Source of the DNA: Ulota crispa
Taxonomy: Eukaryota; Streptophyta; Bryopsida; Orthotrichales; Orthotrichaceae
Reading direction: 5' to 3'
DNA: 64,000 bases
Assembly: GCA_963920765.1 (NCBI GenBank)
Contig: OY987242.1
Location: 38,553,264-38,617,263, forward strand
The notes beneath the pieces are model-generated. The model was not told the origin of the DNA. It did not search any database and saw nothing but the letters and a program-made list of their open reading frames with translations. This document shows, in pieces, positions 5,915-64,000 of this stretch. Both the position numbers and the translations under genes were made by a program. Numbering within the stretch: the stretch's first letter is position 1; each line of letters begins with the position of its first letter.

Positions 5915-7394
5915 TTAACCCCTAAGCGCTCAATTGACCATTTTTTGGTTGTTGCCCTTTTTTGTGGGCTACCTCAAATGCAAAAAAATGTATTTAAAAA
6001 CTTTTAAAAAAAAACTGGCAAATAGTAAAGCAAGTCTACTCTCCAATCCAGTTTGAATCATGTCAACTCAAGTTAAGCTCCATCAAGGAGAATTTTTCAA
6101 ATACAAACATTTCAACATTTGATAGTGTTATAAGATTTACTATTTTGGGAAACTAATGATGTCCTCTCTTTTGAAAATATTTCTTTTTTGAATTTTAAAA
6201 TATAATGTTTTTTAAACTAGTCATACCAAAATTTAATTTCTATGAATAAAATTTATGACTTCAAAAAATATCAAATGATAAATACTTCAAAATTCATCAA
6301 ATAAGAGTCCAAAACATTTTTTGAATGTCTAAGTGCATGGATAATTACTAAACATAACAATTTATGTTTTCTCTTTTAACCCCTAAAGGACCATTGTCCA
6401 TGCAAGGGAGAGGTTGGACTTTGGGCATGTACTTATGGCTAAACTACTTTGTGTGATATTCCAAAACTTTTATTGAAGGTGGGAATTCAAAGATCTAAGT
6501 GGGCATCTAATTTTTTCTTCACTCCGACGTTTGACAAAGAAGTTATGCATGAATTTTAGAAAATTTGGAGAGGACTGCCCATTCAGGCAGCCCAAAAACT
6601 TCTTTAAAAATTACTTTTTAAAAAAACTCAAATTTGAAATTGATTCTTTAGATTTTTTTTCATTCATGAAAGCTTTGAATCATTCAATCTCAATCAATGA
6701 CATGAAAGTTATGAGGAGTCTTTGTTTGTGGGTAGTTATGGAATCTCTACTCTAAAATAAACTTTGAAGTCCTTTATTTTACTCAATTTTCAATATTTTG
6801 AAAAAATAAATAAACGAAAGGAAGTAGATTGTTTATCACAACATTATTACCGTAGAGATTTGCGTTTTTCATTTCCATAATTAAATTATTAACAATTTAG
6901 TGTTTTGACTCATTCTCTACTTCTTTTTATTTACTATTTTTTCCCGCGTGTTGTATAGTTCCAATTGATTTGAAAATTCTCCCACACTTACCTAACTTGA
7001 TCTCCTATATGGAAAAAAAAAGCGCACCTTTGGATAGAGCAATTTTTTTGTTATAAGAGTGGTCAAAGGCTTTTGAAATTTTTGGGCCGCATGGAAAAAA
7101 CTTTTTTTTTCACTTTAGATGTAAATATCTCACTCCTCTCCATTTGGAATGAGCTGATTTTTTTCCCATCAGTACCTCTTCCAATCTAGGAAGATCCTAC
7201 GATTGGATTCCCCAAAAACAAAACATAAAATCTCATGTTTCTAAACCTCCTAGAAGTGGCAGTTTTTAGTGATTTTGGCAAAAAGAAGGGCTTGGTCCTT
7301 TAGGGGTTAAAGCAAACTTTGTCAATGTTATAAAAGTGTCATTTTAAAACATATTTATGTTTTACCCTTATCTGCTTGGGCATTTAGGGGTTAT
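5915..7394. mobile_element. TTAA-flanked MITE (B-like) carrying a nested element
   Basis: The left terminus TTAACCCCTAAGCGCTCAA is matched at the right by the complement of a terminus reading ATAACCCCTAAATGCCCAAG. The inner part is occupied by another TTAA-flanked element (6376-7310). Without it the outer element would be about 550 bp. The right TTAA has decayed to TTAT. Confidence 0.5.
6376..7310. mobile_element. TTAA-flanked MITE, family A, about 935 bp (A1)
   Basis: The element begins TTAACCCCTAAAGGACCA and ends with the complement, GGTCCTTTAGGGGTTAA. The interior is AT-rich without a protein-coding gene. Its closest relative here is 53460-54375: both share the segment around an AT-rich core with the words TTTATTTTACTCAAT and CTCTACTTCTTTTTA. 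The element at 46684-47610 has the same core in the opposite orientation. It lies inside another TTAA-flanked element. Confidence 0.72.
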
Positions 7395-7887
7395 AGTATG
7401 TTCAAATCATCTATGCTTTAAATGCATCTCTTACACTAGTAAAAAAACATATCCTAAATGATTAAGTGATAACAACTAAACCATGCGTGCAATGACTATA
7501 CAACAATTACAAAATGACTCAATTTCACTTGTACAATCATGATTTAATCATTGTCACTTAGTCATTTAAGATCTGTTTTTTAATTAGTGTTAAACAAATT
7601 TACGTTATTAGATGACATTCAAAATCTGAACATCTTGACGATGATTATCGAAAACGTCAAAATATTGTATAGCCTTGTTTTAGACCAAAATTTTAACCTC
7701 ATAAATTAATAAATAATCTCACGGGAATTAAAAAGAAAACAAGGCCAGGCAAATAAAAGACAGCCTCAAATTATTCTTCAAGGTGCATTCACTAGGTTTA
7801 TGTATTGAAAAGCCTAGTTGGCTCACTCACACATCCCCAGAGAAATTCATTTCTCCCGAAAGAAAGGAGCATTATTAAAACTCCACT

Positions 7888-8400
7888 TTAACCCCTAAAC
7901 GCCTAAGCCCATTTTTTTTTGAAAAAACATTGAAAATTATCCTTTTCAGTTGTTTGATTCTAAGAACAATTTTTTTTGTTTTTTTATAGAAATTCAATCA
8001 TAGGATCTTGCATAAGACATATGTAAGAAGTTACGGTAAGATTTTAACCCTTAAACAACCATAAGGCATAGTATATACCATGACGTATAATTGTCATTTG
8101 TTACCAATAAGACATTTTAATTTGGGATCTCAAATAGCTCACTAGAACCGCATTGATTTATTCTCCAACTTCTTTGTTGGTCTTAAATGTAGTAGAGATG
8201 TGGATCCACTCCAAATACAAGAAAAATATGCCGTATTGTACTGGTCGCAAAGGGCTTTTTAGTCGTTTAAGGGTTAATGAAGCTTGACTGTACAAATAAA
8301 AAGATATGAGCATTTGGAGTTGGTAAAAATAGTTTTTTGAACTCTGCCACAAATTTTCAGGTCCCTTTGACTATATATTGCAAACAATTTTTGCACTATG
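7888..8400. mobile_element. Family A element, incomplete, interrupted by a B element
   Basis: The left end TTAACCCCTAAACGCC starts at 7888. The sequence up to 8043 resembles the left parts of the elements at 42057, 45258 and 46684 (shared words such as GAAAA..ACTGCC and GGATCTTG). After the insertion at 8044-8277 the resemblance resumes at about 8280-8395, matching bases around 42205-42330. I could not find the right terminus, so the end is approximate. Confidence 0.45.
8044..8277. mobile_element. Short TTAA-flanked MITE, family B, 234 bp (copy B1)
   Basis: The terminus TTAACCCTTAAACAACC at the left pairs with GTCGTTTAAGGGTTAA at the right. Very similar 234-bp elements lie at 35189-35422 (opposite orientation), 51873-52106 and 52509-52742. 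All share the interior words TAATTTGGGATCTCA (or a close variant), CTCCAACTTCTTTGTT and CCAAATACAAGAAAAATA. It appears inserted at a TTAA inside a family A element. Confidence 0.75.
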
Positions 8401-8512
8401 AATGCAGGGGAGATTTGCCCAACACGCTCTAAATTACGTTAGGCATATTTCCATATATTTTCATGGCCAACAAAGGCTTGGAACACTCCATTCATGGGCA
8501 TGCCATTGTAAA

Positions 8513-17500: not shown

Positions 17501-20500
17501 GTCATATCTTGTTATGCATTTAATGAGATTAGCATTCGCGTGCATGTTTTAAAGTCAGACTTTGATCCTTAGCTAAAAAAATCTTATGTTCACTTGTGTT
17601 CAGGTTCATCACGATACTGGAAAATTCAGCCTTTGTTTGAAGCAGTCTGTGTGCTTCTCAACGGACGCCTCTCTTATCAATGGTTACTTTTTGGAAGAGG
17701 AACAGGTTATACGATTTGGACAGTTTCTTTTTGTGTTTAGTGTAACGTTCATTTACTGCAAGTCTGTTGTATGTCAACCTCTGTATCTTCAATTGCAAGA
17801 AGAGAATTTATAGTTTGATACTTCAGTCATTTGACTATGAGTAAGGCACTTATGTTTTATATTTTGATTTGTTCAGCTGGTGAACACAATTGGAGGTCCT
17901 AATTTAGAATGGACAGAGAGCTTGGCAATTGGAACTTGTACAACTGGGGAAGTACAGGAAATTAAGGATTATGGTGTCATTGTCAAAATTCCGAGCCATC
18001 AAAATATCGTTGGCTTTATCACACATTACCAAAGTGAGGGCTTATGACGTTTAGAACTGTGGTTTGCCTATTCTTGACATGTATAAGTTTTAACTTTACC
18101 AGTTGCTAGTTATAATTCCTTTTCTCTATCCTATCAATTTTCCTTTATCTAAAATGTCAAGTTTAGTGGAACTTACTTCTTGGTATTTTCATTGAAATAT
18201 CAACAGTGGGCGATATTGTTGAAGTGGGCAAAACGGTTCAAGCAAGAGTGCTTGATGTTGTAAAAGCAGACGAGATTGTGGACCTCACACTACGACCAGA
18301 GTTGCTTCAAGTCAGCAATCAAGAAACAACCAAGAGTACGAAGGAGAAACACAAAAAGGTGTGGCCATTACTTTGTCTTGATTTACTTTTGGATTGAACC
18401 TCCCATTTGCATGTAAAGAGCTGTGTATGCACGTTTGTTGTATACGACCTTTGAAATTGGAGAAATCATATACTTCAATGGGGTGGTCAATTCATTTGGC
18501 TATTGCTGCATCCTATTCATGAGATACTCTCTTCTTGTTGTATCCATCAACTTGAGGAAATCTAACTGATACATTTATCAATTGAGAGAACTATGAATTT
18601 CCACTTGAGGACACAACCATTTTGAATGGGTTTGTGTACTTCTTATGATCCAAAACTGTTAAACCACTGGCTGATGGCTAGCTACTCCCTTACTCTTCAA
18701 ACCAACGGTTGGGAACAAAACGTGGTCCGCATGGATCGCCATTTGCTCTAGCTTGTTGTTGAGTATGAGGATGTAATTGCCAATATATCAACGCTGTGAA
18801 CTGTGTTTGTACTCTTATACCGTCAGAACTATGCAACACTGTGAAACAAGTTTCTGAGAATCCTTCAACTTGAAGGTCCATTTTATGCTCGTATGAGGTG
18901 TAGTCAACAGGGGATGATTGAAATGAAGGCCGATCGTAATATCCACATTTTGCAACCATTCTGAATTCTTCTCCCGTTTGATTCCTAGATGTTTGTTTAT
19001 TTTGTCATTACAGAGTTTACAACTAGAGCACAATTAGATGGATTTTTTTTAATACAGTGCCTATCTAGTTTGACTAACCCCTGTTTGTTGGATTCTCTTA
19101 ATGAACAGAGGCCAAATCCAACAACCACTTTAGAGCTTCACCAAAAGGTTGCAGCTGTGGTTGAGCTTGTGAAAGATACCTATCTGGTAAAGATTTTTCA
19201 GTACCTATTATCTATTTCAAATTGGTAAAACTACGTGTATTCAACTTGGGTATTTCCTTGTTCTGAGAGAGAGTATTTATGCTGATTTTTCGTTGTCTAC
19301 TAATCAGATGTGTTATTTAATGTTTTCAAAGTAGTTTTCTCTAGCGACGATCAAATTGTCCAATTAATTATTTTCAATCTTTGTTTTCAGGTGTTGTCCC
19401 TTCCCGAGCAAGGTAATATGATTGGATTTGCTGCAGCCTGTGATTACAATTCTCGACAGCAGGATTCTCATCAGCGCTACAAACCAGGGCAGAGGTAAGC
19501 TTGGCAAGAGATAACCAAAGAATTTAATTCATGAACGGTGATTTTCATTATCATACGTAAATTTGGTGCAGTTGATACCGATGTGTGTGGTTGCGCACCA
19601 GGTTACACTAATAAATGGCCTTTGTATTTTTGGACTTCTGTGATATTGTGCTTTGATCGTTTGTGTACCGTAGTTGGCTTGAAGCAGAGGGTTGAACCTT
19701 TGTTTAGTGTTCTACTGATCATAAAACATACTTGTCCTTTTTCCTACATGGTTGTCTCCTAAACATGGTTGTCCTCTTTACTTGTTTTGAATAAAGCATG
19801 CTGGTGATGATCATTGAGCGCACTCTTCCCTCAGACCAAGGTCCACAAAATCCACAAATCATTTCTAGTAGATTATGTGATGTTTTTCTTAGCGTTGTGA
19901 TCTAATACACTCCCATGTATGACTGAACAGTGTGGTGGCAACGGTGGAAAGTCTGGGAGATAAAGCGAGTGGCCACAGGGTGCTACTCTTATTGAGCAAG
20001 GCCGGGGATTCTCTACAGGTTACCCCTAAGAGGTTAAAGCAATCTTGGAAAGAATTGAAGAAAGAAATTGGCACTATTGTTGACGCTGAGGTATGTTTTT
20101 TACTACTATATTTGAGTGAGTCAGGCTTGCGCTTCTTGACTTAGTGTGAATAATATGCACTGCAATATCTATTACTTAAAAGTTGATCTGCGACTAAGAC
20201 AAACGTGGCGCGCTTGTGCTTTCTCTGCTTCAAATGTTTATCTATGTTCCATTTTCCACTTAGCTCTTCTTATATTGACTGACGTCAACTCGGAATAATT
20301 GATTTTGTTTTATTGAACTGGACCAGGTGGTGGCTGTTGATAAGCTACAGTTAACAGTCCGCGTAGGTACCTCGATGGAGGGCCGGGTTCATGTTACTGA
20401 GGTGAGTCTCCTCATGAGATTGTTGTATATGTTTCCAATTTACTGGTGATTTACCTGTTGCTACTTGCAGCTACGTACACTGTAGATAGTATCCCCGCTT

Positions 20501-23500
20501 TGTACTGTAGTTTCAAAATCTTCCTTTACGGGTCTGGGACCGTGGCCCCTGTATATCGTCGCGAGGCCTTCAAGAAATCTTTCTTCAGCGGACATTTGTA
20601 TGTTTATAAGTATTATTGCTGACAACTCAAGCACATGGTTTTTTACTCTATTCCATATTGTAGCGGTACCCTGCTATTAGTTCACAAGTATGTCAAATAT
20701 ACACGGGTTGAAATGCCTGATCGTCTAAGTGGATTGATGTTTTTAGACCTATGTTAATTAACACGAAGGCTTTGCTTTGTTGGTTTTTTATTTTTGTATG
20801 GTCTTGCAAATTAACAAACATGTTATTGTTGTCTTCATCAGATCATGGATCAATTTGTAGAAGGAAACCCCCTCAGTTCCTTCCAAGTAGGCCAAAAAGT
20901 AAAGGGAAAAGTGTTACAGAAAGTGCGTGTTGTAAAAGCTCCCGGCAGCTCAGAGCATATGCATGTTCTGGAGCTTTCATTGCGACCCTCTCAACTCTCA
21001 GGTTCTCTTCCTTCTTTGAAAAAGATTGCCTATTTCTCCTCAGTTTTTCATGTGATTGTGAAAGGAATTTGCTTGAGGCGATTTTAGTAATTGTTAATAT
21101 TTTCACGAAGGCTTTACAAGTCTCTCAGGTTTGTAACCAGTCCTTGCATCGCATGCGATTCTTCTAGCGCATGGGGTTCTTCGAAGTTTGTATAGCAAGA
21201 ATTGGCAAATCAGTGCTCCGGCATGGATTAACTCATGCATGTTTGATGAGAGATCCAAGAGTTAAGTTGCTGAAAATTGTGTTTGGGGTTGTTATTTGTG
21301 ATTTATTGTAATTTGATGGAGATCTGTTCTTTAGTCAAATAGTTAAAGGTTGTGTTTCTATGATGCAGATGCTTCTGAGGTACCTTTAGGAAGCACTAGT
21401 TCTGGCGCTTTGCCTTCGATTAAAGAACTAGTCATTGGGCAACGCATAGCAGCCTACGTGCAAGAAGTGAAAAATGATTGGGCTTGGCTGCTGGTTGCAC
21501 CGCACGTTCGGGGCCGCTTGTTTGTTTTAGACTCCTCATCTAATCCTTCGGAGCTGGAGAATTTTACATCAAGGTTTTTGATTGGTGATGCTGTAAGCTG
21601 CTGTGTGAAGGCTGTTGACCATGAGAAACAGACTCTAGACTTAACTCTTAGAGACCCTATCCAACAACAGGAGAAATCAGAGTTTGGTGTTCCACTTATC
21701 AAAGGAGAAGCTTCGATAGTTGAGTTCCAGAAGGGTGATATCGTGGGTGGCCGAATTGCTCGAGTTAACCCTGGTGTAGGCGGGTTGAATATACAGGTTG
21801 CACCGTCTGTATATGGGAGGGTTCATGTGACTCATCTTAGTGATTCGTGGAAGGATGATCCGGTTGCAGAATTCAAAGAAGGCCAATTTGTGCGGTGTGT
21901 TGTTGTGGATGTTGGTGAAGGCAGTACTGGTAGGACTCTCTTAGATCTTTCATTGCGGAAGTCCTTGGGTGGATCGGCTCCAGACCTAGCTACTGCAAGG
22001 TGTGTGAATCTTCAACCGCTTTGCGTTTCCTTGAAATATCGGTTCCTCATCTTTGGATTTCTAGGATTTTTAAAAGTTGCAGCTCTAGCTCTGTTTGCAA
22101 TTTTGAAACTACACTTATTGCACTAGTGGCTATGTTTTTGGTAGTCTTGAAGCCTAAACTGATTTTGTGAATGCTCCATCTTTGGACAGGCCCTCAAAAG
22201 CTATTAAGGTTGACAGCATCAATGATCTCAAAATAGATCTTGAAGTCCAGGTAACATTTATTTGGTCATCCCATGTTTACATTTACCTTGTACCGCTAAG
22301 TAACCTGCAAATCTAATGATTTTGTGAAATTGCTTTGCATATTGTAGAAAAGATTTTTTGTAGCTAAGCGCTTCATGTTGATATGCATAATTTATCCTTG
22401 CTTTACCGTGACCATTGTTACTTGGCATACAGGGGTTCGTTAAGAGCGCTACTAGCAAAGGGTGCTTTGTTACTTTGGCACCAAACTTGGATGCAAGAGT
22501 TCTCATCTCAAATCTAGCGAGCACCTATGTTGAAGATCCAGCTGAAAGTTTCCCCCCTGGAAAGTTGGTCACAGGGAGGTAGGTTCTTTAATCCCATGTT
22601 CAAGTTCTTCTGGACTTGCATTGAGTATTGTTCAGTTTTCTGCAACTTCGACGTGATCTGATTGAGAGCCTTTGGATTCGTGTATCAATTTAGGAAGGTT
22701 TTCACCATTTTGTTTCTTCTCCCGTGTGAACGTCACTAAATGTTGTTTACTCTTGTTTCAAAAGGATCATGAGTTTTGAGCCCCATTCAAGAAGAGTTGA
22801 TATGAGCCTCAAGAACTCCAATAAAGCAATGAAACCTACCAGCAGTCTCTTGGGTCGTCGTTTTGGGGACTTCAAAGAGGGTGAAGTTGTTTTTGGTAAC
22901 ATAAAGCGAATTGAAACGTTTGGAATGTTTATAACTATCGAGCAGAGCAGTGTGGTAAGCTCATTATTCTCAATTGTAAACTCTAGTCATTTGGTTCATT
23001 TGCAAGATTTACTAGTTTTAGAGAGCAGGTGCGTTGTTTAATTTCAACATTTGTGGTTCTTGTTATGGTTTTGTTAAGCTCTTCACTCTACACTATTTGT
23101 TTTAGCAGAAAACGTATATGAATGGCATAAACTTGCATCATCTAGAGATTGATGAAACCACGTAGAATGACGTGGAGTGTATAGGATAATAATACCTGAT
23201 GAATAAAAGCACCTCTAGTGTTGCAAGAGTGATGAATGGTCTAGTTGCAATATTTTGTTTTGAAGATTTTCTTATCAACTGATGTTATCTTGCAACAGGT
23301 GGCTATGTGTCATGTTTCCGAAATTGCTGACCATTATGTACATAAAATTGACCAACATTACAAAGTTGGTGATCGTGTGCGTGCTCGTGTTGTGAAGGTA
23401 TGCATACTCTATTGCTTATACTACAATCCCGAGCTTAATGTTCATTTGTTGAACATTGCATGTTCCTTATAAAGGCAAAAAAGTGACTCTGTAGATCTAC

Positions 23501-26260
23501 TTGAAACTTTTTACCTTGTGGCAGCATTTAGGAATTGCTGCATTTATGGATCCAACTAAGCATTTGTATTTTTCATGTTTCATTGTATTTGAGGTTTTTC
23601 TACTTATATTTTAATTTATGTCCTACTCTTGTTTCTAGGTGGACCCTTCCAATGGGAGGATTTCACTTGGTCTGAAGGAGTCTTACTTTCTAGATGCGGA
23701 GACACATGTTGACGGTATGGAAGCCGCAAACGACGAAGAAGCAGATGTGGTTTCGGATAATGATGGTGAGGAATCTGAGGAAGATGATGATGACTATGTG
23801 GAAAAGACGGTGGAGTTACAAGGAGCTCAAAGTAATGATGGTAAGTGAATGAGCTTTTCGTTGCTGTTAGTTTAGATTTTAGTTGGAAGTTGAAGGGTGT
23901 AAACCATATTTTGTTTAGTTTTCGATCTCTTACATGCACGCTGTGGGTTTGCAGAGAGTGGAAACGAGTCAGAAGAAGAGAACGGAGTTGATTTGGATGA
24001 TTTAGAGGAGGATGACGATGATGAAGAGTCGTCTGAGGATGATACTATCAAGACAGATGTTTCTACTGTGTTAGCGCCACCTTTGGAAGTTGAGATGGAG
24101 GAGGAATCTCACCCAGGCACCGACTCTGAGGAAGAAGAGGACAACGAACCTGAAGATGCTAAGAAAACAACGAAAAGAGCCAAGAAGCGGTTGAAAGAAC
24201 AGCGGTAAGTGTCCTCCAGTTAAACCCTAAAACAATTTCTCGAAGAGCCTCCAAGTTTGAGGATTCTCCAGAGAGTGTTACTTTTATGCAGGACCCCACA
24301 ATGTTAACAAGTAGGAGATAACCAAAAGATTTTTCTGATTTTTCTTAACCGCCATCAATTGCCACCCGCAGTGAGGCAGAGATTACTGCTGCTGAAGAGA
24401 AACGATTGAAGGGTGACCAAGCTCCGGAAACTGTGGATGAATTTGAGGCACTTGTGCGAACTTCCCCAAATAGCAGTCTTGTTTGGATCAAGTACATGGC
24501 GTTCCTACTACAGCTTGCAGATGTTGCAAAAGCACGAGCTGTTGCTGAAAGGTTGAATCCCACTTTATACTTGATTGATTTGCAAGTGAAGCTGCGAGAG
24601 TTCTTATTTCTGTGGACAATCACCGTAAGATATTGACAGTGTATTGGACCATGTTCTCATGGCTGCAGGGCTTTGCAAACGATAAACTACAGGGAAGAAT
24701 CAGAGAAGATGAACGTCTGGATAGCTTATTTGAACCTTGAGAATGTTTATGGCAACCCTCCCAAGGTTTGGCTGATTTCAGTAACAACTTGTTTCTCACG
24801 TGTTGACCTCTTCATTGCAGGAAATTATATTTTAGCTTCATTTTCAGTTGCAAGAAAATGTTCTCACAGATGGAACTGTCATAATTTATGCAGGAGGCAG
24901 TTTTGACTCTTTTCAACAAAGCGTTACAGTATAATGACCCGAAGAAGCTCTACTTTGCGGTATTGGGTATTTATGAAAACCCTAGACAACCCCAAGGTCC
25001 TCAGCACGATATGGCTGATCAGTTGCTGAAGACAATGACTCGGAAGTTCAACACTTCTGCAAAGGTAGGTTTTTGATACCAGTGTTTATTGCAATCACGT
25101 ACACGTTAAAAGCTGCATAACCTTGAACAAGTAGGCCAGCTTCGATTTATGCTAAAAATTCTGTAACGATTTCTGTTTTGGATTCTGGAACACTACCTGA
25201 TTTCGCCTTCCCTCGTCATTACTTTTTCAGGTGTGGTTAAAACAAATCCAAATCCTGTTGGCAAGAAACATGGGCGATGCTGCTCACAAGGCCCTGGACC
25301 AGTCACTTCTGAGCCTGCCACGACGGAAGCACATCAAAGTCATTAGCCAAGCTGCACTGCTTGAATTTAAAACCGGTTCTGTGGAGCGAGCAAGGTCAAT
25401 TTTTGAGGGAATACTTCGCAATTATCCAAAAAGAACAGACCTGTGGAGTGTCTATCTTGATCAGGTACCCTATCCTAACTCTTAAGGACAGAGATTTCAT
25501 GGCTTTAAAATCACGAATAGTATCGATCATGTGTAAATATACTATGCAATTCTATCTCACCAGAATCAATGAATGACATTGGATGCGTTTTCATCAAAAG
25601 ATAGATTTGATTGAAGAAGTGTCAAAAAACATGACCCATACTTTAGGGCTTTCATGGCGCTTAGGTGTCTATTGTTATTTTCTCATTGATTCCAGCTGAG
25701 AAAGTCAGCCCCTTCACGTGCCTGATGGCCGAAGTATAGCTAGCAGTTTTCTTAGCTCAACCCTTTCTTGTCAGCAAATCTTTTGAAACTCTTAAAGGTT
25801 TCTAATACAAGCCTTACTTGAGCAGTTCAGTTACTTTCTGCCACTTTCTTAAGGACAGATTCTTCTATCAAGGTCTGTCCTTGCCTGTTGAACATCCTCA
25901 TCTCAAAATGAAACGCCTACTAAATGCTTTTGTTCCTGCAGGAAATCCGCGTGGGTCAAGTTCCCGTAATTCGAGCTCTTTTTGAAAGAGTGATCTGCTT
26001 AGAGCTCAAACCCCTCAAAATGAAGGTACTATTCCTGCGAATTATTTTTACAATGGTGTTGCCAACTGTGTTTGAAAGAAACCAAAGCCGTTACAAAAAC
26101 GAACATGATGCTTATTGTTTCTTACTCTCTTTCTTGTTATTCCCACGTGTAGTTCCTCTTCAAGAAGTACCTGGATTTCGAAAAGGCCCAGGGTGATGAA
26201 GAACGCATAGACCACGTAAAGAAGAAAGCCATGGAGTACGTTGATACAAAGCTTGGTTAA
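10070..26260 (+). CDS. RRP5: rRNA biogenesis protein RRP5 (S1-repeat and HAT-repeat ribosome assembly factor)
   Basis: I resolve 41 exons, all with GT-AG introns and consistent phases, totalling 5979 bases (1992 residues), close to the size of plant RRP5. RRP5 is a nucleolar factor that binds pre-rRNA and is needed for processing of both 18S and 5.8S/25S precursors; its S1 repeats contact RNA and its C-terminal HAT repeats bind the small-subunit processome. Seen here: a basic N-terminus with the family motif EDFPRGGASAL; about 15 S1-like segments from about residue 117 to 1545; an acidic Asp/Glu-rich linker at about 1570-1700; and HAT repeats from about 1703 to 1992, ending with the conserved [16 protein letters not shown]. 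The start is the first in-frame ATG after a stop at 10025-10027. Exon coordinates are given in the five part entries that follow. No intron exceeds about 750 bases and no transposon was seen inside. Individual splice sites were inferred by eye; the exon 9 end is uncertain by nine bases. Confidence 0.93.
13018..13147. repeat. 63-bp tandem duplication in RRP5 intron 8
   Basis: The unit starting AGCAGTTTGGATCGGCTCTA at 13018 is repeated from 13081 with a few differences (shared GTACAT.CTGCTTGTAGTT and ACACAGA.TTGCTTA). It lies wholly inside the intron. Confidence 0.8.
14747..20401 (+). other. RRP5: RRP5 exons 13-27: S1 repeats 6-11
   Basis: Exons: 14747-14827, 14983-15119, 15415-15549, 15780-15940, 16158-16223, 16453-16562, 16893-16973, 17127-17201, 17604-17705, 17877-18033, 18207-18358, 19109-19186, 19391-19494, 19931-20090, 20327-20401 (residues 565-1122). 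S1-like segments: exon 14 ([20 protein letters not shown]), exon 16 ([16 protein letters not shown]), exons 18-19 ([20 protein letters not shown]), exon 22 ([15 protein letters not shown]), exons 24-25 ([17 protein letters not shown]) and exons 26-27 ([18 protein letters not shown]). The 750-base intron 23 (18359-19108) is the longest in the gene. Confidence 0.87.
20842..23397 (+). other. RRP5: RRP5 exons 28-33: S1 repeats 12-15
   Basis: Exons: 20842-21001, 21369-21999, 22190-22250, 22433-22578, 22765-22954, 23299-23397 (residues 1123-1551). Exon 29 (631 bases) is by far the largest and holds two complete S1-like segments ([19 protein letters not shown] and [19 protein letters not shown]). 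Exons 30-31 carry another ([17 protein letters not shown]), and exons 32-33 the last ([18 protein letters not shown]), which is the most canonical S1 sequence. Confidence 0.87.
23639..24204 (+). other. RRP5: RRP5 exons 34-35: acidic linker
   Basis: Exons 23639-23840 and 23955-24204. After the end of the last S1 repeat ([15 protein letters not shown]) the protein becomes a long run of Asp and Glu broken by Ser, then a short Lys/Arg-rich stretch ([15 protein letters not shown]). The family has an acidic, probably disordered linker between the RNA-binding S1 half and the HAT half. Confidence 0.87.
24372..26260 (+). other. RRP5: RRP5 exons 36-41: HAT (half-a-TPR) C-terminal domain
   Basis: Exons: 24372-24551, 24669-24765, 24894-25064, 25231-25464, 25942-26025, 26153-26260 (residues about 1703-1992). 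HAT motifs are visible as repeated aromatic-plus-acidic helices: [95 protein letters not shown] and [15 protein letters not shown]. This domain mediates protein contacts in the small-subunit processome. The stop codon is 26258-26260. Confidence 0.9.
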
Positions 26261-28740: not shown

Positions 28741-28856
28741 ACTTGCTACCTCATACCTAGTAGTGATTAGGTTTGACACTATCAATATATGGAAGTGTTT
28801 TTACATTCCCAAAGAATAGGAGTGTGTTTGACATCATAGTAGAGTCTTGGTGTATA

Positions 28857-28993: not shown

Positions 28994-28995
28994 TA

Positions 28996-45257: not shown

Positions 45258-46189
45258 TTAACCGCTAAAGGACCACATGGCCTTTAGTTTGTCAAAAGAC
45301 ACTCAAAACTGCCACTTATATGGCAAAGTGTAAAAAAGTTTGGAAATTGGTCTTTTTGCATATTTGACCGTAGGATCTTGTACTAGATTAGTATGAAGAT
45401 GTGTCATACAAAATTCAAGAACTTTGACCGCACAAATTGGAAGATATTTGCATTCAAAGTGTAAAAAACAAGTTTTTTTGCACCTTGCATGATTAGATTA
45501 TTTAACTATGAACTATTTTAACTTATAATTTTTGCACCATAGAGTTTGGAACTTTATTTTTGTGTGGTGGGAAGTTGAATTGGGAATCTTGGGAAAATTT
45601 TCAGAACAAAAAATACATAATTTTCATTCTTTAAAAAAGCATTAGGTAGAAGAAGGTATGAGATTGAACAAAAACTCAAATTGCTAATAACCTTGCAATG
45701 GAATTGAAACTCAATAATGCCAATGGTGAGGTTGTTCTAGAAAGCAAACTTCACCCTCTTTAACAATTTTTTTTGAAAAAATGTTAAGCTTGCATTCAAA
45801 ACTAAAGTTTATAAGTTATTTTTTCAAGAAGATGCTTAAATTGCCCAAAAAACAAGATTGTCCATAACTTTCTCATAACTAGCCCAAATGGAATGAATCA
45901 AAGCTTCAGATGTAGAAAAAAAATGTAATTTATGAGAAAAAAATTTTAAAAGATACTTCAAGTTTTTGTAAAAAAAAATTTGTTGCCCAGAGTCCCCAAA
46001 TTTGTGCTTATTTGAGCATAACTTTTGCTCCCTAGCATCGACTGGAATAAAATTTAAATTCCCCAAAAACTGATGTGTTTTCCTATCTTCAAAAAAAAAT
46101 CATAAAAATCAAAACAAAAATTGAGACCATAGGTACCTACCCAAAATTCCTTTTGTTTCCCGTAGGGACAATGGTCCTTTAAGGGTTAA
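45258..46189. mobile_element. TTAA-flanked MITE, family A, 932 bp (A3)
   Basis: TTAACCGCTAAAGGACCACA at the left pairs with GGTCCTTTAAGGGTTAA at the right. The AT-rich interior resembles 46684-47610 in its left part (AAACTGCC, GTAGGATCTTG). No coding gene was recognised. Confidence 0.68.
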
Positions 46190-46683: not shown

Positions 46684-47610
46684 TTAACCCCTAAAGGGTT
46701 TTGACTAAGTTTTCATTAGACCGCTCCAAAACTGCCGATTCTAGTACAAGTATCACATTCTAGAAAAAAAACGTTTTTGAACACAAGTAACAGTAAAATC
46801 TTGTAGTACACTGATCTCAAAAAATGTGAAAATAAAATTCAAAAGTTTGCACTACATAGATTGTAAGATATTTGAGTTTGAATTGACAAAAAGTCATTTT
46901 TTGTCCTTGTAAAAATTAGGGAAACTATACTTCACCAGGTCACACATGTATAAACAACTTTCAAAATAGTTGTAACTTTTTGAATTCATTTTGCAATGCA
47001 AGTTGGATATATACTTGAAAAACTTCAAATCATTTGGAGGTGCAACACATGGGAAAAAAATAGAAAGTAAAAAGAAGTAGAGAATGATTTAAAACACAAA
47101 ACAATTAAGAACTTAATTATGGAAATGAAAAATGTCAATCCCAACTATTATAATTTTATGAACAATTTACATCCTTTGATTTTGTTTTTCTTCCAAAATA
47201 TTGAAAATTGAGTAAAATAAAAGACTTCAAAGTTTATTTAAGAGTAGAGAATCCACAATTGCATGCTAACTAAAACTCCTCATAACTTTCATCTCATTGA
47301 TCAAAGTGGATGATTCAAAGCTATCCACATATACATAAATCTCCTGAACCTATTTCAAAATTTTATTCCAAAAAGAATGATTTTTTCTAATGTATAGGTA
47401 CTTTGACTGCTCAACTAGGGAAAAAAGAAACATATTAGGCCATAACTTTTTACTCATTCCAAATGTGATGACATTTAGTGCATATGGAAAATATTCCTTG
47501 TCTCCACCTTTCATTAAAACTTCAGCCTAAAATATGAAATCTCCAATCACACGTACTTGCCCAAAATTATTGTGCTACCAAAACAAGCACCTTGGTCCTT
47601 TAGGAGTTAA
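46684..47610. mobile_element. TTAA-flanked MITE, family A, 927 bp (A4)
   Basis: Left end TTAACCCCTAAAGGGTTTTG, right end GGTCCTTTAGGAGTTAA. The core (AAAAAGAAGTAGAGAATG, ATTGAGTAAAATAAAAGACT) is the reverse complement of the cores of A1 and A5. It lies about 500 bases from A3. Confidence 0.7.
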
Positions 47611-48288: not shown

Positions 48289-48706
48289 GGGCATCCCAAT
48301 GTAGCCGTAAAAGAGGTAGGCAAAATTTTGTGCAGTGTTTTGAATAGGACTTGAGCAAAAACATGGGCTCTAATGCAGCAGGTAAATCATACTGCATTTT
48401 TCAAAGCTCCACACATACGATCCCCTCCCCTACAAATTTTCATTATTTGGAGACTCCTGCATACCACTCCAACTCTGACATTGACATAATTTTAGGGAAT
48501 TTCAGATACTTCTGACATGAATCAGCCACACATAAGCACTTAAAAAAGACATAAACTATTAAAAACTCATGTTTAGTGAATGTCAGAGCTTGTGTGCATT
48601 GGGGCTACTGCACTAGGGAAATGCCCCTGCTCTGCATCTAAAGTAGAATCACACACGGTCTAACAAACTTTGGGAAGCTGAAATCCCGACTGGATTAGGG
48701 ATGCCC
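48289..48706. mobile_element. PIF/Harbinger-like MITE, family E, 418 bp (first of an inverted pair)
   Basis: GGGCATCCCAATG at the left, GGGATGCCC at the right, flanked by TAA (48286-48288 and 48707-48709). The right-hand neighbour 48710-49144 is the same element in the opposite orientation. Three-base TAA/TTA duplication and GGGCATC ends are hallmarks of PIF/Harbinger MITEs. Confidence 0.72.
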
Positions 48707-48709
48707 TAA

Positions 48710-49144
48710 GGGCATCCCTAATTTAGCCGGGATTTCAGCTCCCCAAAGTTTGTCAAACCGTGCTTGACGCCGGCTCTCTTACAGAGCAAGGTCATTTCCC
48801 AATCCACCACCTCCCAGTGCACATACATGATGACACTCACTAAACACAGTATTTTAATAGTTTATGTTTTTTTTTAAGTGCTTATGTGTGGCTGATTCAT
48901 GTCAGAAGTATTTGAAATTCCCTGAAATTACGTCAAATCCAGAGCTGGAGTGGTATGCAGGACTCTCCAAATAGTGAAAATTTGCAGGGGAGGGGCTCTT
49001 ATGTGGGGAGCCTTGAAAAATGCAATATGATTTACCTAGTGCATTGGAGCCCATGTTTTTGCTCAAGTCCAGTTTGCTCAAGTCCGGTTTAAAGCAGTGC
49101 ACAAGCTTTTGCTTGCCTCTCTTACGACTGCATTGGGGATGCCC
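48710..49144. mobile_element. PIF/Harbinger-like MITE, family E, 435 bp (second of an inverted pair)
   Basis: GGGCATCCCTAATTTAGCC at the left and GCATTGGGGATGCCC at the right, flanked by TAA at 48707-48709 and 49145-49147. Together with its partner it forms an 856-bp imperfect palindrome (shared words AGCCACACATAAGCACTT and its complement). Confidence 0.72.
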
Positions 49145-51003: not shown

Positions 51004-51006
51004 TTA

Positions 51007-51464: not shown

Positions 51465-51873
51465 AGGTAGCAACACCCATAAGCGTGAGTTTAAGCTTTA
51501 TAGGGTATATACCTAGATTGAACAAGCTTAAAAATAATATTGCTAGATTAGAAAGAAGCAATGAAAAATATTGGCATCAATTTCAAAGTTTCAATTGCAA
51601 GCATTTGTTCACAAAGATTTTTCAAAGTCCTAAATCATTGAAATTGTAAAGTTGTGTGTAAGAGATGCTAAAAACAATGCTTATTGGTTCTTAAATAGTG
51701 AGATGAGGCACTCAAAATTATCATGTTAGTCACCCACAACCACCACTTTGTTACCCACAACCATCACTTCATCACCCACAATCATCACTATGTCACCCAT
51801 AACTATTTGATTCTATACCTGACTGTGCCAGTGACCCCCATGGAGACTGTCACAGTTAGCGGTGCTTCTACCT
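51465..51873. mobile_element. TA-flanked MITE, family H, uninterrupted copy (H2)
   Basis: AGGTAGCAACACCCATAAGC at the left, GGTGCTTCTACCT at the right, TA on both sides. At GAGTTTAAGC (51487-51496) it keeps the TTAA that in H1 is occupied by element A2. It contains the 21-bp minisatellite at 51729-51806. Confidence 0.65.
51729..51806 (+). repeat. 21-bp minisatellite encoding an open (VTHNHHF)n frame
   Basis: Three full units and a partial fourth at a 21-bp period (ACCCACAAC at 51732, 51753 and 51774; ACCCATAAC at 51795). Because the period is a multiple of three, one plus-strand frame stays open and reads a His/Asn heptapeptide. There is no evidence that it is a gene. Confidence 0.8.
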
Positions 51874-52106
51874 TAACCCTTAAACAACAAGAGGGCATTG
51901 TATATACACTGCCGTATAATAGGCATTTGCTACCAACAAAAGGTTGTAATTTGGGATCTCAAATAGCTCACTATGACCACATGGATCTATTCTCCAACTT
52001 CTTTGTTGATCTTAAATGTAATAAAGGTGTGGATGCGCTCCAAATACAAGAAAAATACATTGTATTGTATTGGTTGCAAAGGGCTGCCTTGTCCTTTAGG
52101 GGTTAA
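51873..52106. mobile_element. Short TTAA-flanked MITE, family B, 234 bp (copy B3)
   Basis: TTAACCCTTAAACAACAAGA at the left, GTCCTTTAGGGGTTAA at the right. The left TTAA is the last bases of H2 (CTACCTTAA), and the right TTAA (52103-52106) is shared with the next element. The interior matches B1 and B4. Confidence 0.75.
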
Positions 52107-52508: not shown

Positions 52509-52742
52509 TTAACCCTTAAACGTACATAGGGTACCGTATGTGTGCCGACGTATAATTGTCATTTGCTACCAATAAGAAATTTGAATTTGGGATTTCATGT
52601 AGCTCACTAAAACCAAATTGATCTATTTTCCAACTTCTTTGTTAGTCTCAAATGTAGTAGAGGTGTGGATCCATTCCAAATACAAGAAAAATACCCCATA
52701 TTGTACTGGTCGCAAAGGGCTTCTCAGACGTTTAAGGGTTAA
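52509..52742. mobile_element. Short TTAA-flanked MITE, family B, 234 bp (copy B4)
   Basis: TTAACCCTTAAACGTACATA at the left, AGACGTTTAAGGGTTAA at the right; TTAA intact on both sides. The interior is close to B1, including GACGTATAATTGTCATTTGC. Confidence 0.77.
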
Positions 52743-53459: not shown

Positions 53460-54375
53460 TTAACCCCGAAAGGACCAGACCCCTTTTTAGAAACATAGTA
53501 ATTTTGGGCAGGTACCTGTGATTGGAGTTTCATGATTTAGGCTGAAATTTTATTAATATGTGGGGACAAGGTTTATTTCATATGCATCAAATTTCATGAC
53601 ATTTGGAATTATGCGTAAAAATTTATGGCCTAATATGTTGTTTTTACGTCCGTCGAGCAACCTGGGCAAATTTTTAAAAACTGCTTTTTCAAAAACAATT
53701 TTTTTAAAATTGGTTAAGTAGATTTATGTGAACGTAGGAAGCTTTGAATCAATCCGTTTGATTCAACAAGATGAAAGTTATGAGAATTTTTTTGTTTGCA
53801 GGGAGTTATGGATTCTCTACTCCAAAATAAACTTTGGAGTCCTTTATTTTACTCAATCTTCAACATTTTGGGAAAAAAACAAAACCAAAGGATGAAATTT
53901 GTCTATGACAACATTGTGACCATTGAAATTGGCATTTTTCATTTCCATAATTATATTCTTAACAATTTAGTGCTTTGAATTATTCTCTACTTCTTTTTAC
54001 TTACTAATTATTTTCCATATGTTATACAACTCCAAATGCTTTGAAACTTTTTTGACATGTACTTTACTTAGGTGGAATAAAGAGTTTAGAGAAGCACCAT
54101 CCACATGGCCTTTTTTCCTTAGGAATTTCACCTTTTGAAGGGTAGCTGCCCGGTTTTTCACAAGATGTTTTTGAATATTCAAACCATTCTAACTTCCAAT
54201 CCACGTGGTGGAAAACTCTGAAATCTTTTTCACATCTTCTAAAACCATTCTTCAACAAGATCCTATGGTCACATATGCATAAAAATGTTATTTTTTTCAA
54301 ATTTGGTAGATGCTCTAAAGATGGCAGTTTTGAAGAGTTTTTGGTGAAAACTGTGCTTGGTCCTTTAGACGTTAA
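53460..54375. mobile_element. TTAA-flanked MITE, family A, 916 bp (A5)
   Basis: TTAACCCCGAAAGGACCAGA at the left, TTGGTCCTTTAGACGTTAA at the right. It aligns along its length with A1 (shared GAGTCTTTATTTTACTCAAT-type core and CTCTACTTCTTTTTACTTAC). Confidence 0.72.
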
Positions 54376-55255: not shown

Positions 55256-55654
55256 GAACATCCTCACTCTAGCAGGTATATGGACTCTAAAACAACACTC
55301 TCACAGTGAATACTAGCTTGAGAACTGCAAACTTGGTCCAATGCACCTACTAGTGGAACGTGATTTTAAAGGGAACCACAAAAACCTAACCCATACCTTG
55401 TAGTTTCAGCAGGCCTCAAAAGTCCTTCAAGTTGCTATGTATACTGCTATCCACACAAATGACGACTACTTTGCAAGTTAGAAATAGAGATTTTGTCAAA
55501 AAAACCTGACAAAAATCTAATAGAAACAAAGTCTCGCTACAAAAGTGCATTGGGTTAGAAGAGCTGGTGTGCTGCCTATGTCAGTCAAGGCCACTCAACA
55601 AAGCTTAATAATTGCCATTAGCCAAGCGTAATGTAGCTCTAGATTGAGGATGCC
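55256..55654. mobile_element. PIF/Harbinger-like MITE, family E, about 400 bp
   Basis: GAACATCCTCACTCTAGC at the left after TTA, and GCTCTAGATTGAGGATGCC at the right. The terminal bases are diverged and the right border is approximate. Confidence 0.5.
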
Positions 55655-55837
55655 GCTAGAGAGTTGGAACCCAGTCTTTTGGTTGCATGAATTGCATCCC
55701 TCTATCATAAATGATGTGATTACTAAGGGCATCCTCAATCCACTCAACAAACAAGCCCAATATACCAAGTTGGATCTATTAGTAGCTAGTAGACTATCAC
55801 ATAAAAATTGTTTGATTTGAAGGGCATGAAATTTTTT

Positions 55838-56113
55838 ATTATGAAATGCAATAAAATTTTGGTTTGGACATTGCGTGATTTAGATACATCACATTAAATG
55901 TTAGCTAGTTTCCAAAAAACTTAGAGGCCTCTCCAAATCAAGCCTAAATAAGAAAAAATTAGTAAAGGTGTCCATACCATTACCATCTCCTTCACTAAAA
56001 CTTCCTTATTTAGGCTTGATTTGGAGAGACCTCTAAGTTTTTTGGAAACTAGCTAACATTTAGTGTGATGTATCATGCAATGTCCAAACCAAGATTTTAT
56101 TGTGTTTCATAAT
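55838..56113. mobile_element. Palindromic MITE, family F, about 276 bp core
   Basis: The arms are nearly perfect complements (GCTAGTTTCCAAAAAACTTAG and CTCCAAATCAAGCCTAAATAA with their complements, shown as short motifs). Weaker pairing continues outward to about 55810 and 56140. A half-copy lies at about 9395-9515. The target duplication is not clear. Confidence 0.68.
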
Positions 56114-56149
56114 TAAAGACTTCACACCATTCAAACCATATAATTTTTA

Positions 56150-56729
56150 GGAAAAATATTAAAAATGCCCCTCAATTCATTCAAAACATCAAATATACCC
56201 CTATATGAAATATCAAATATACCCTTGACTTTGTGGAAATATATCAAATATACCCCCTGTATGAAATATCAAACATACCTTGACTTTGTGGAAGAATATC
56301 AAATATACCCATGCTATTTCTGAAAATTAAATAAATATCCCTTGTTTTTTGTGCCTCTCCATTGCAAATTTTTGTCCTACTGCTGTCATTTAAATGTCCC
56401 TATTATTTCACAATTTGAAATCTTGTGGGTTGCTTGAAACACCAAAAACATTCAAGTGACTAGTAGCCAGGCACATGTGTACTTCCAAAAAGAGGTGACA
56501 TATTCTATAACTAGCATTTAGTTTTTGAAAATTCCATTGTCATGGCAGTAGTACAAAAACTTGCAATGGAGAGGCACACAAAGCCAAAGGTATATATGAA
56601 AATTTCAGAATAGAAAGGGCATATTTGATATTCTTCCATAAAGTCAAGGGTATATTTGACATTTCATATAACATAGGGGTATACTTTATATATTTTTCAA
56701 GAATTGAGGGACATTATTGATATTTTCCC
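56150..56729. mobile_element. Palindromic Mutator-like MITE, family L, with 9-bp target duplication
   Basis: Starts GGAAAAATATTAAAAATGCC and ends GACATTATTGATATTTTCCC. The duplication TAATTTTTA is perfect (56141-56149 and 56730-56738). The left arm holds a direct repeat of about 60 bases (ATATCAAATATACCC and CTTGACTTTGTGGAA phrases twice). Confidence 0.75.
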
Positions 56730-56832
56730 TAATTTTTATATGATTACCTATTAGCTATTAATATACATGCTTCGTATACGGGGTATGTCTGCCTGGTGGA
56801 TTGAGAATGCTTTAAGAGGCGATTCAAATCAA

Positions 56833-57228
56833 GAGCATCCTCAATCTAGAGCATGCATTGGGCTTGCTTAACAACAATTAGCGAGCTTCATTGCGTGGCC
56901 TCATCCAAAGCAGGCGGCACACCGGCTCCTCTAACCCAACGCGCACAAAGGTAGCGAGAGTGCAAACTTCATTTTTGTCAAATTTTTGTCAAATATTTTT
57001 GACACAATTTCGATTTTTGGCTTGCAAAGTAGTCATCATTGCTCTTACAGCAATATAGAGAGGAATTTGAAGCCTCTTGAAGAATGCTAAAACTACCAAG
57101 TGTGGGCAAGATTTTGTTGTCCCTTTCAAGATCACATCCCACTTGCCAAGTGCATTGAACTAGTTGCAGTTCTCCACCATTAGAGTACCAATGCATGGGG
57201 TATTAACCCAGCTGGATTGAGGATGCTC
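56833..57228. mobile_element. PIF/Harbinger-like MITE, family E, 396 bp
   Basis: GAGCATCCTCAATCTAGAGC at the left, GCTGGATTGAGGATGCTC at the right, followed by TAA (left flank CAA). The inner sequence resembles 55256-55654 (shared GAGCTTCATTG, AGCGAGA and CAAAGTAGTC words on opposite strands). Confidence 0.65.
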
Positions 57229-57969: not shown

Positions 57970-58730
57970 TTAACCCTTGAGTGCCCATGCCATTTTCACC
58001 AAAATCAAAGTTTTGAGAGATTTACAACTTTGATGTACTACATCTCATTCAATTGGAAGATCCACAAAAAGTGATCGTTGAAAATAGTGGAAAACCTACT
58101 TAGGAAACAACTTGCAAATTTTGGGAACAATTGACCGTAGAAGATGGGAGATTATAACATTTGATCAAACAACATGTGATAGCAAAATCTCATTGTTTGG
58201 TAGGTAGTTGCTATTTGATGATTTTTACAAAATTCTATAAGCCCCTAATTCATCTCAATTTTTGGGAGTAGAAAGATTAGATGTGAATGTACACATTTGT
58301 AAATTATTGAAGACTACACTCTTTGTTTTGTCAAGTTTTAGGGCTTCAATTTGCTCTTGCACAAAAAAGGATGATTGGGACAGTTGGTGAGGGTTGCCAT
58401 AATAAGGGTCTAGAACATGCTTGAACCTTGCCAACAAACTTCTTGCTACCACAAAGCACACACAAGGAAGTTTGCTAAGGATATTGACGAGTTGCAGCTT
58501 GTAAAACATTGCTTGCCACCATGCCTAGTATGGTGTTTCACCCAATCAAACCTCTTGCTACACTTGTACAACATTTGACTTTCTTCGCAATTACTCCATT
58601 GGCATGAAAAACTTGAATGCCTTCATAATTGAAGTTTATAACAAGACCAAAAAGTTAGATCCAATGCCTCAAACAAGCGTTTGAAATCATACGAGGACAC
58701 TTTTGGTCCTCTGGGGCATGCAGGGGTTAA
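57970..58730. mobile_element. TTAA-flanked MITE, long B subfamily, 761 bp (B8)
   Basis: TTAACCCTTGAGTGCCCATG at the left, GGGGCATGCAGGGGTTAA at the right, TTAA intact. It is the inverted counterpart of 43797-44563 along its whole length. Confidence 0.72.
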
Positions 58731-61444: not shown

Positions 61445-61491
<47 letters not shown>

Positions 61492-63166
61492 TCCATATGA
61501 AGAAAATATGGTCATATTTTTCACATAGGATTTTATTATCTTGGCTTACTGCAATTTTCATTCAATTTCAATCCCTTGATTTAATCGAGGCTTTAAACTG
61601 ACACATGTCACTTCCATGGGACGATATTTAAGACCTAATATAATGTGGTACAAATATTTGATTACCCCCTTCAACTAAAATCAGCCAAAGTGGTCATAAG
61701 CAATACTGTTGCTATGACTCTATGGGGCTGGGGGGACTATGCTAAGAAGAGCTAGTTCTCAATTTCCTCAGCTTGTGCTCATGATAATACTGATTAACGT
61801 TGAAGCGCCCCCATTATCCCCTTCGTTTGTAACTGATTTGTGGATACTTAGCCGTATTCTTTCTCAAACTAGACTATTAGATATAAGAGGTTTTACTTTG
61901 AAAACTATAAATAAACTCTTCAATAGTTGAAAGGGGTATAGTGAAGCATAAAACTTAAAACATAAATATATTAGATTTTCCTTTTTAAACACTAATGTTT
62001 AAGTGAAGGAGTAAATTTTTAAAGCACAATTTTGAAAGGAGGCACTATATTTATGTTGGAAACTCAATATAAGAACATAGTAACATTACACAACAAAAAA
62101 GGGCCCTCAATCAGGTAGCCAAACTATTGTTTTTTTTCTCAATGTCAATGATTGTATATATTAAAGAGACTCCCACCTCATTGATGCTTTATCATATTGT
62201 TTGTGGAAACATGTGCAAACAATGAAATAAAATAAAATAAGTACAAACACTTGCAAGATACTTTAGTACTAGTCTTTGAGCAGTGTTGCTAAAAGTGTGA
62301 GCAATGGGCATGAAGCATTGAGCAGTGGGGAAAAAAAAAAAAAATCTGAAACATTTAATCTGCAATAATTTGTAGTTTTGTAACTTTGAAGATAGAGGAA
62401 AAATAAATGTATGTGTAAAAAAACTAAATCTCCATTTATACTCATCCATTGAAATGGATGGATGAAAAACCATAAAGGATGAAAGAAAAATATTTTGGAT
62501 GAACATAAATGAACAATATTTGATGAAATGATCCAAATGTCAGAGTAAAAGAAAATTAGAAGAAACACTTGAAGGATAACATTTAGGGAATAACTATACT
62601 AAGAAAAATTTCAGGAAAATGTTGACATGAATGGTTTAAATTCAAAAAGCCAATAAGCCTTAAATAACATGATGGGCAGATGGGCAGTTACATGGCATAA
62701 CAATTTTGAAGTGCATAAATTGAGTTAATCAAAAGAATATTGGTTTAGAATATATTGCAACCACATTGCAAACCATTGTAGTATGAAGTTGAATCTAATA
62801 ATAACATTGCAAAGCATTCTATAAAACTAAGAATGCATGTAATGAACACATCGAAAAGCCTAAAGAGGATTAAAGAGCAAAATCCGACTCTATTGCATTT
62901 GAGTAATTATAATTCAAAGAGTTGGAAGACATAGTAAGCAAATTATGCCACAAGTTGTAGATACTTTTCAATAAAAAACAGCTATGAAAACATTACTTGA
63001 TAATTTAGAACTGAAACATGTAAGTAACAACCAAGAACTAAAAGAAGTTACAAACAATTACTTTCATGGAAAGATGTGATTTTCCCCATATCTAGTAGAT
63101 TGATCATTTAGTAATGCTAAAATTGAAAGGGACTGCATATAGCTATGGAAAACACACATACATATA
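58731..63166. other. AT-rich intergenic DNA, no gene recognised
   Basis: 4.4 kb without convincing coding sequence or terminal repeats. It contains the A run at 61451-61489 and a short direct repeat (GATGAATTTGAGGGTTTTG / ATGAATTTGAGGGTTTTGAA) at about 60937-60974. Confidence 0.45.
61451..61489. repeat. Poly(A) run of 39 bases
   Basis: An uninterrupted A tract. Nothing upstream resembles a SINE or LINE body, so it may be a simple homopolymer expansion. Confidence 0.95.
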
Positions 63167-64000
63167 AGGTAGGAACATTCATAACCGTGAGTATACCCCT
63201 GGCCATGACCTATGTCTAACACAAGATGTTAGTCATTTGAAATTAATAAACTTGGTGGTTATGGGAACTTAATCCCTAAAGGACCAAGGGCCCTTTTGGG
63301 GGACTTTCGGGATTTTGGGTAGGTACCTATGGCTAAATTACTTTGTGTGATAATCTGAAACTCTTATTAAAGGTGAGGGATTCAAAAATCTACGTCGAAA
63401 TGTAGTTTTTTCTTCATTTTGACATTTATTGAAGAAGTTAAAAATGAATAACTGAAAAACAGGGAACTCCGGGCAGCCCAAAAACTTCTTTAAAAATTGT
63501 GTTTTTTTCAAATAAAAATCTGAAATAGGTTCTTTAGACTTATGTAGATATGAGTAGCTTTGAATCATTCAATTCGGATAGATGAGATGAAAGTTATGAG
63601 AAGTTTTAGTTTGCAAGTAGGTGTGATTTCGAGAGAAACCACACCTACCTGCAAACTAAAACTTCTCATAACTTTCATCTCATCTATCTGAATTGAATGA
63701 TTCAAAGCTACTCATATCTACATAAGTCTAAAGAACCTATTTCAGATTTTTATTTGAAAAAAATGCAATTTTTAAAGAAGTTTTTGGGCTGCCCGGAGTC
63801 CCTTGTTTTTCAGTTATTCATTTTTAACTTCTTCAATAAATGTCAAAATGAAGAAAAAATTACACTCCCACGTAGATCTTTGAATTCCTCACTTTCAATA
63901 AAAGTTTCAGAAAATCACGCAAAGTAGTTTAGCCATAGGTACATGCCCAAAATTCCATTTGTCCCTTAAAGGGACAATGGGCCTTTAGGGGTTAATTGAT
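63167..64000. mobile_element. TA-flanked MITE, family H, left part only, carrying element A6 (H3)
   Basis: AGGTAGGAACATTCATAACC after TA at 63165-63166 matches the left ends of H1 and H2 (including the CCATAAGCGTGAGT-type phrase, here CATAACCGTGAGT). The right end would lie beyond the window. Confidence 0.5.
63269..63995. mobile_element. TTAA-flanked fold-back MITE, family A (A6)
   Basis: A 727-bp near-perfect palindrome with the turn at about 63625-63635, TTAA at 63269-63272 and 63992-63995, and terminus TCCCTAAAGGACCAAGGG at the left against CCTTTAGGGG at the right. It is the same sub-family as A2, with the same loop words (AGGTGTG and CACACCTACC). Both arms keep a 76-codon open frame reading towards the element ends. 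Confidence 0.82.

Follow-up and report, generated by a model that had tools for sequence, protein, structure and literature searches.

In a 64,000-nucleotide stretch of the moss Ulota crispa (contig OY987242.1, positions 38,553,264 to 38,617,263 of the forward strand, or G000:C1:38553264-38617263 in our numbering; hereafter the window) lies a set of short, TTAA-flanked elements. We consider these elements to be non-coding miniature inverted-repeat transposable elements (MITEs) of piggyBac cut-and-paste transposons that are native to this 274.8-Mb genome, mobilised by its own piggyBac transposases, and we give this reading a probability of roughly 0.93. It is based on the termini that the elements have in common, the single 4-bp unit seen at empty sites, the presence of full-size, transposase-coding elements whose ends are of this type, and the common descent of the right end of a 935-bp MITE and the right end of one clade of coding elements.

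A preliminary description, made from the letters of the window, had counted at least sixteen TTAA-flanked elements with common termini. We find 15 paired elements with ends of the TTAACCCYT type, one of them interrupted. An exact TTAA opens 28 of the 30 ends, the exceptions being TTAG at 40723 and ATAA at 7394; the stretches 7888-8277 and 5915-7394 are read differently here. The size classes given earlier (234, 390, 730, 760-790 and 920 bp) agree with ours (234, 390, 727-728, 761-794 and 916-935 bp). That the family dominates the locus was strong wording for what is certainly present, as the 14 stretches described below (7888-8277 counted whole) span 9,514 bp, or 14.9% of the window. The description had further proposed a TTAA-duplicating superfamily, either piggyBac or Sola3 and in both cases not a usual source of plant MITEs, to be checked by searching the genome for the termini and for long elements with such termini that encode a DDE transposase. 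Both searches have now been run, and the piggyBac branch is supported by the elements carrying the piggyBac transposase profile PF13843, by the shared right end and by the 4-bp empty sites.

Ends, copies and transposases

The signal in the window comes from paired ends. If inverted end pairs are defined by a spacing of 150-1100 bp and a match of 14 or more of 20 bases, the window has 15 of them (a few being cross-pairs between adjacent elements), whereas 50 dinucleotide shuffles gave 1.06 on average and never more than 9. When one mismatch is allowed, the bare 7-base core shows no such excess in the window (92 on the forward strand, shuffle mean 95), and thus it is the longer end and the pairing that carry the signal. 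The elements have the properties of MITEs: they are 234-935 bp long, non-coding, bounded by inverted repeats and present in high copy number. There are nine open reading frames of at least 120 amino acids in the window, one of which (51723-52106) overlaps an element.

Throughout the genome, the end TTAACCCYTAAA occurs 39,919 times (19,961 + 19,958), compared to 792 times (397 + 395) for the reversed pattern, which served as the control in all these counts. Near-equal numbers in the two directions are expected if every element has one end per direction. The ends TTAACCCYTNANNGNCC (31,318, control 9) and CCCCTAAAGGACCA (8,876, control 0) are also abundant, and exact TTAA stands directly before 7,555 of the 8,876 ends of the latter type (85%). 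The window, with 18 exact ends, is about twice as rich as the genome mean implied by the TTAACCCYTAAA count (9.3 per 64 kb). Scaling the genome counts by the window (18 exact ends for about 17 elements of about 0.7 kb each) gives a rough estimate of 20,000-37,000 elements, or 5-9% of the genome. When 40 of 7,803 first-look candidates were scored, the 727-bp element of the window had 39 other copies, at 88-92% in the best alignment of each and at or near full length, plus one partial piece. For the 761-bp element, 40 of 2,134 candidates gave 39 other copies at 83-89%, most of them full length, plus two partial pieces. A recent burst is not seen among the scored copies of these two queries.

The genome encodes the enzymes that such elements would need. 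A search with PF13843 gave at least 120 matches, the best at 1.3e-73; this is a lower bound, as 116 of 528 first-look candidates were scored. The same profile had no match in 14 control genomes. Ten of the 120 matches are free of stops, and several of these are pieces of one copy; most transposase copies carry stops. A stretch at L019 (L-numbers denote loci elsewhere in the same genome) matches PF13843 at 2.8e-67 and aligns to piggyBat (9c0f, 2e-24) and to the Trichoplusia ni piggyBac transposase (6x67, 7.5e-20). Aspartates are conserved there in the DN motif and at 6x67 positions 268, 447 and 450, which we take to be the catalytic ones. The open stretches of L083 contain TVDE, TDNF and GIDVVDQ, and L082 has GGVN in place of the GGVD found in others. 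A regular expression written for the second aspartate also picks up a different VDN stretch. The domains are diverse, as 29 usable ones of 30 (L036 was left out) form 13 clusters at 55% identity. A regular expression finds a Cys-rich motif, C-x2-C-x8-C-x2-C, after the domain in 15 of the 30 loci, with a stop inside it in three of the 15. Upstream of the domain, the elements at L012, L013, L014 and L030 have open stretches of 281-539 amino acids; short upstream pieces of L030, L009 and L013 had no Pfam match over the cut-off.

Comparison of related copies places the ends of the coding elements, which are 5.0-6.0 kb long (some ends being tentative), with the transposase domain beginning 2.0-3.3 kb from the left end. 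L009 and L018 (5,027 and 5,026 bp) can be aligned at 90.5% over 5,028 bp; the alignment begins with the first base of the left TTAA (which is TTCA in L018) and runs to 1 bp beyond the right TTAA. The L030/L028 alignment starts exactly at TTAACCCC and has its end no more than 5 bp from the right TTAA, that of L011/L025 stops 1 bp beyond it, and that of L012/L022 stops within 2 bp of it, having started about 50 bp inside the left TTAA. L012 (5,746 bp), with TTAACCCCTAAATGCCTAA at either end, has an end-pair score of 25, compared to 18-23 for all of 22 pseudo-loci taken from the window. In L009, L018 and L014 the domain lies at an identical offset of 2,526 from the left end, which favours the end call of L014. 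In coding elements and MITEs alike, the terminal inverted repeats are short and start with CCC(T/C), and the lineage-specific ends of the coding elements vary at the same positions as the MITE ends.

Descent of the MITE ends and competing explanations

A tie between the two kinds of element is found in the L011 clade (L011, L025, L026, L034 and L038). On the right, 1,632-1,940 bp past the domain, all five members terminate in TTAACCCCTAAA(G/A)G, in the form TTAACCCCTAAAGG in four and TTAACCCCTAAAAG in L025. In pairwise comparisons, homology halts within 5 bp of the right-end TTAA in 9 of 10 cases (L026/L011 falls short of the TTAA) and extends 500-740 bp inward in 6 of 10, beyond the MITE match. 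The last 351-371 bp of the 935-bp MITE at 6376-7310 match the right end of all five elements (72-77% in four, 59% in L011), and every match breaks off at MITE position 565-585. These two right ends are of common descent. On its right side, the anatomy of the MITE is what would be expected of an internal-deletion derivative. The clade's right end is also matched by three other ends in the window, namely those at 7888 (in three of the five members), 45258 (in two) and 53460 (in two).

We propose that the CCCYT-type terminal inverted repeats were recognised by piggyBac transposases from other loci of the genome, which integrated the elements at TTAA and thereby duplicated this tetranucleotide. 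The MITEs would then have been mobilised in trans, and they may have arisen by internal deletion followed by amplification. The system is probably inactive at present, as most transposase copies carry stops and the scored copies are 8-17% off the two MITE queries.

Empty sites were sought with those of 54 candidate element pairs, in 356 kb of sequence, that had at least 40 bp of flank on each side. Nine queries gave junction-spanning matches. Three were self-matches of adjacent 234-bp elements, and L017 was set aside because it does not resemble such a MITE, which leaves five paralogous empty sites. Each of the five shows one 4-bp unit, for two sites an exact TTAA in one relative, and the four target bases align without gaps in the relatives named here. 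The site of the element at 36315-37042 is TTAA in L047 and CTAA in L053, L005 and L054. That of two adjacent 234-bp elements at L052 (2848-3312) is exactly TTAA at window position 4972-5030. The site of 6376-7310 is TAGA in a 77% relative (L023), that of 8044-8277 is TTTG in L011 and is also spanned by three more distant relatives, and that of L008 1501-1742 is TTGA in two relatives.

Several results weigh against the piggyBac reading or limit it. The empty sites alone fit a TTAA duplication or a TA duplication at TTAA targets equally well. The coding elements are tied to the 730/920-bp group by the right end only, and tentatively to the remaining families: the 234- and 390-bp families have no assigned clade, and for the 760-790-bp family the link to L010 consists of 86 bp at 70%, the L010 end having been called from a single copy. 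Among the transposase elements, none was found with both ends matching one MITE family. No fitting left end was found at L025, and a left end of L011 at 1517 was rejected, as 1517-2442 pair as a separate 926-bp MITE. End calls made from single copies are weak, since the 22 pseudo-loci, the window being rich in MITE ends, scored 18-23, and only L012 of the ten elements scored exceeds this range. The calls for L010, L013, L014 and L016 rest on single copies and are tentative, and L023 had no convincing ends (best score 19). In three of seven copy pairs (L013/L027, L014/L021 and L010/L020), homology breaks off well before the called ends are reached. Finally, three C-terminal pieces scanned against Pfam gave nothing above the cut-off, and B-box-like matches stayed below it (0.0042 and 0.015).

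A refinement of the piggyBac reading, which we regard as having about an even chance, is that all the elements are piggyBac MITEs with a separate parent lineage for each size class, some of them (234 and 390 bp) having been assembled from several piggyBac ends and not derived from one element by deletion. The 13 transposase clusters and the parallel variation of lineage ends and MITE ends point in this direction, as does the fact that the 728-bp family and the 935-bp element have mainly half-ends in common. Against it, a tested parent exists only for the 730/920-bp group.

Sola3 transposons also duplicate TTAA, and it could be argued that the MITEs belong to this superfamily, with the piggyBac transposases as unrelated neighbours. 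The available text of PMC9033089 includes Sola1 from the moss Physcomitrella. Although no search aimed at Sola was made, we consider this explanation very improbable, because copy pairs show piggyBac elements to be bounded by CCCYT-type ends, because the 935-bp MITE has 351-371 bp in common with every right end of the L011 clade, and because CCCT is reported, in the available part of PMC12732532, as the most prevalent end motif of beetle piggyBac elements. For the 730/920-bp group, Sola3 is largely refuted.

Other DNA transposons are present in this genome, as shown by at least 150 matches to the Harbinger-type transposase PF13359 (150 of 278 candidates scored) and 54 to the MULE transposase PF10551, so that piggyBac is not the sole DNA transposon here. 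Least probable of all is that the elements are ordinary plant MITEs whose targets resemble TTAA by chance: these transposases and the compatibility of the empty sites with a TA duplication of the Tc1/mariner kind would allow it, but TTAA on both sides together with a single 4-bp unit does not fit the 3-bp TTA/TAA duplication of PIF/Harbinger, no 8-9 bp repeat of the hAT (8-bp) or Mutator (9-bp) kind was found at the five empty sites, and the right-end matches in all five clade members contradict it.

Elements of the window and neighbouring features

The leftmost element, of about 545 bp, is an outer TTAA-type MITE at 5915-7394 whose right TTAA reads ATAA. It is split by the 935-bp MITE (6376-7310), whose two ends both read TTAACCCCTAAAGGACCA; L023 contains, at 282-825, a relative of the outer element without the interruption. 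The stretch 7888-8277 had been taken as one 390-bp element, a reading that we reject, as this length arises from a 234-bp MITE (8044-8277) nested in a larger piggyBac-end-like element. One end of the latter (TTAACCCCTAAACGCC) occupies 7888-8043 up to the nested MITE, with 73% over 158 bp to the L011 right end, and homology picks up again beyond 8277. Three further 234-bp MITEs lie at 35189-35422, 51873-52106 and 52509-52742, and the four copies are mutually 78-88% alike. The last TTAA of 51873-52106 is common with another end starting at 52103; this sharing of a single TTAA by neighbouring ends, also seen at L052 2848-3312, would fit an insertion of one element into the terminal TTAA of the other.

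The 390-bp MITE at 35900-36289 has a relative in the flank of L014 (88.5% over 348 bp). The 728-bp element at 36315-37042 is a fold-back MITE with arms of 250 nt at 92%, and the 727-bp element at 63269-63995 is near-palindromic, with 357-nt arms at 89%; the two copies are 78% alike. The 794-bp element of the TTAACCCTTGAGCG type at 39930-40723, with the right end TTAG, has its left 86 bp at 70% to the tentative L010 left end. The 767-bp MITE at 43797-44563, of the TTGAGCG/TAAGC type, is 81% alike over 732 bp to the 761-bp MITE at 57970-58730. The largest class consists, apart from the 935-bp MITE, of elements of 932 bp (45258-46189, with one end matching the right ends of L025 and L038), 927 bp (46684-47610) and 916 bp (53460-54375, with one end matching those of L011 and L038). 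The end core CCCTAAA (for example at 6376-6387) is also the plant telomere repeat unit, which is probably a coincidence.

The window also contains other inverted repeats. The one at 33833-34609 has 269-nt arms that are 100% complementary and 239 nt apart and lacks a TTAACCC-type end; it may be a fold-back element of very recent origin or a feature of the assembly. Fold-back elements at 28263-28678 and 43381-43791, which have a stretch around AACAACACCCAATGAA in common in their inner arms, form another family, and the long inverted repeats at 48295-49137, 55458-57040 and 56202-56670 probably belong to other families. A 313-amino-acid open frame at 2815-3756 resembles, on visual inspection, a RING-H2 (ATL-type) protein. 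Elsewhere in the genome, 5.8S rRNA gives 14 scattered matches over several contigs, and near-identical light-harvesting genes are clustered at C4:21.39-21.77 Mb. For the light-harvesting complex II protein of this genome, the first two PDB chains are multi-domain LHCI chains of 9vfj, and of the single-domain chains 8htu and 7xqp match best; a second light-harvesting protein is closest to 7ksq, 7xqp, 8htu and 6l35. These last four entries are from the moss Physcomitrium patens, which points to a bryophyte, and probably a moss, as the host.

piggyBac elements in a land plant

MITEs derived from piggyBac are not new as a kind. Human MER85 and MER75 are piggyBac MITEs, and the moss elements resemble these animal elements in being short, non-coding and TTAA-flanked, with ends in common with coding piggyBac elements; the differences are the land-plant host and the several size classes within one genome. 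With Tourist and Stowaway, the familiar plant MITEs, they share the short inverted-repeat structure and the high copy number. The target duplication and the transposase superfamily of those two are different (their target sites are also given in the available text of PMC10004981). The coding elements are like animal piggyBac, as represented by the T. ni (6x67) and piggyBat (9c0f) transposases, in having a PF13843 transposase with conserved aspartates, a TTAA target and CCCT-type ends. They differ in the position of the domain within the element, in the Cys-rich motif and in length, as intact beetle elements measure 2,074-3,465 bp (PMC12732532, in the part available).

The preliminary description had suggested that the lineage is little described. 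This is fair, although not absolute. The main text of a MITE survey of 207 plants, as far as available, contains neither piggyBac nor TTAA and sorts elements mainly into five superfamilies (PMC12550479), and none of the titles listed from the open-licence literature deals with piggyBac MITEs of mosses or of bryophytes in general. The available text of PMC9033089 includes Sola in its table of plant elements and does not name piggyBac, which is also absent from the available main texts of PMC6723128 and PMC10952607. Against novelty, PiggyBac is among the seven MITE superfamilies identified in angiosperms according to the accessible part of PMC10004981, and piggyBac is named among plant DNA transposon superfamilies in that of PMC10794571. 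Excerpts from two further studies report 1,230 annotated PiggyBac copies in Ceratopteris, making up 0.00% of the assembly (PMC6890710), and one PiggyBac in Stipa (PMC8319324). According to the introduction of PMC12732532, piggyBac is a transposon of animals, fungi and protists that has been recorded occasionally in plants, red algae being named. A candidate moss record (PMC10619864) was rejected, as the word in the text available stands in the phrase 'expression piggybacking'. The kind of element is known. What is new or little described is that it occurs in this host and with so many ends, and that the coding elements are so long and diverse.

As this land plant carries around a hundred piggyBac transposase copies, if not more, and piggyBac-type ends in the tens of thousands, MITE surveys that use mainly five superfamilies could misname or miss a large fraction of the elements in such genomes. 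The moss also offers a plant system in which the spread, silencing and loss of piggyBac can be studied. It is possible, at somewhat less than even odds, that piggyBac, of which land plants have hardly any records, has radiated in this genome into at least a dozen deeply diverged lineages of 5-6 kb with an uncharacterised N-terminal region, and that these may supply the main MITE load. If this is true, the elements would go back to an old and long-lived piggyBac clade of plants, and not to a single recent horizontal transfer.

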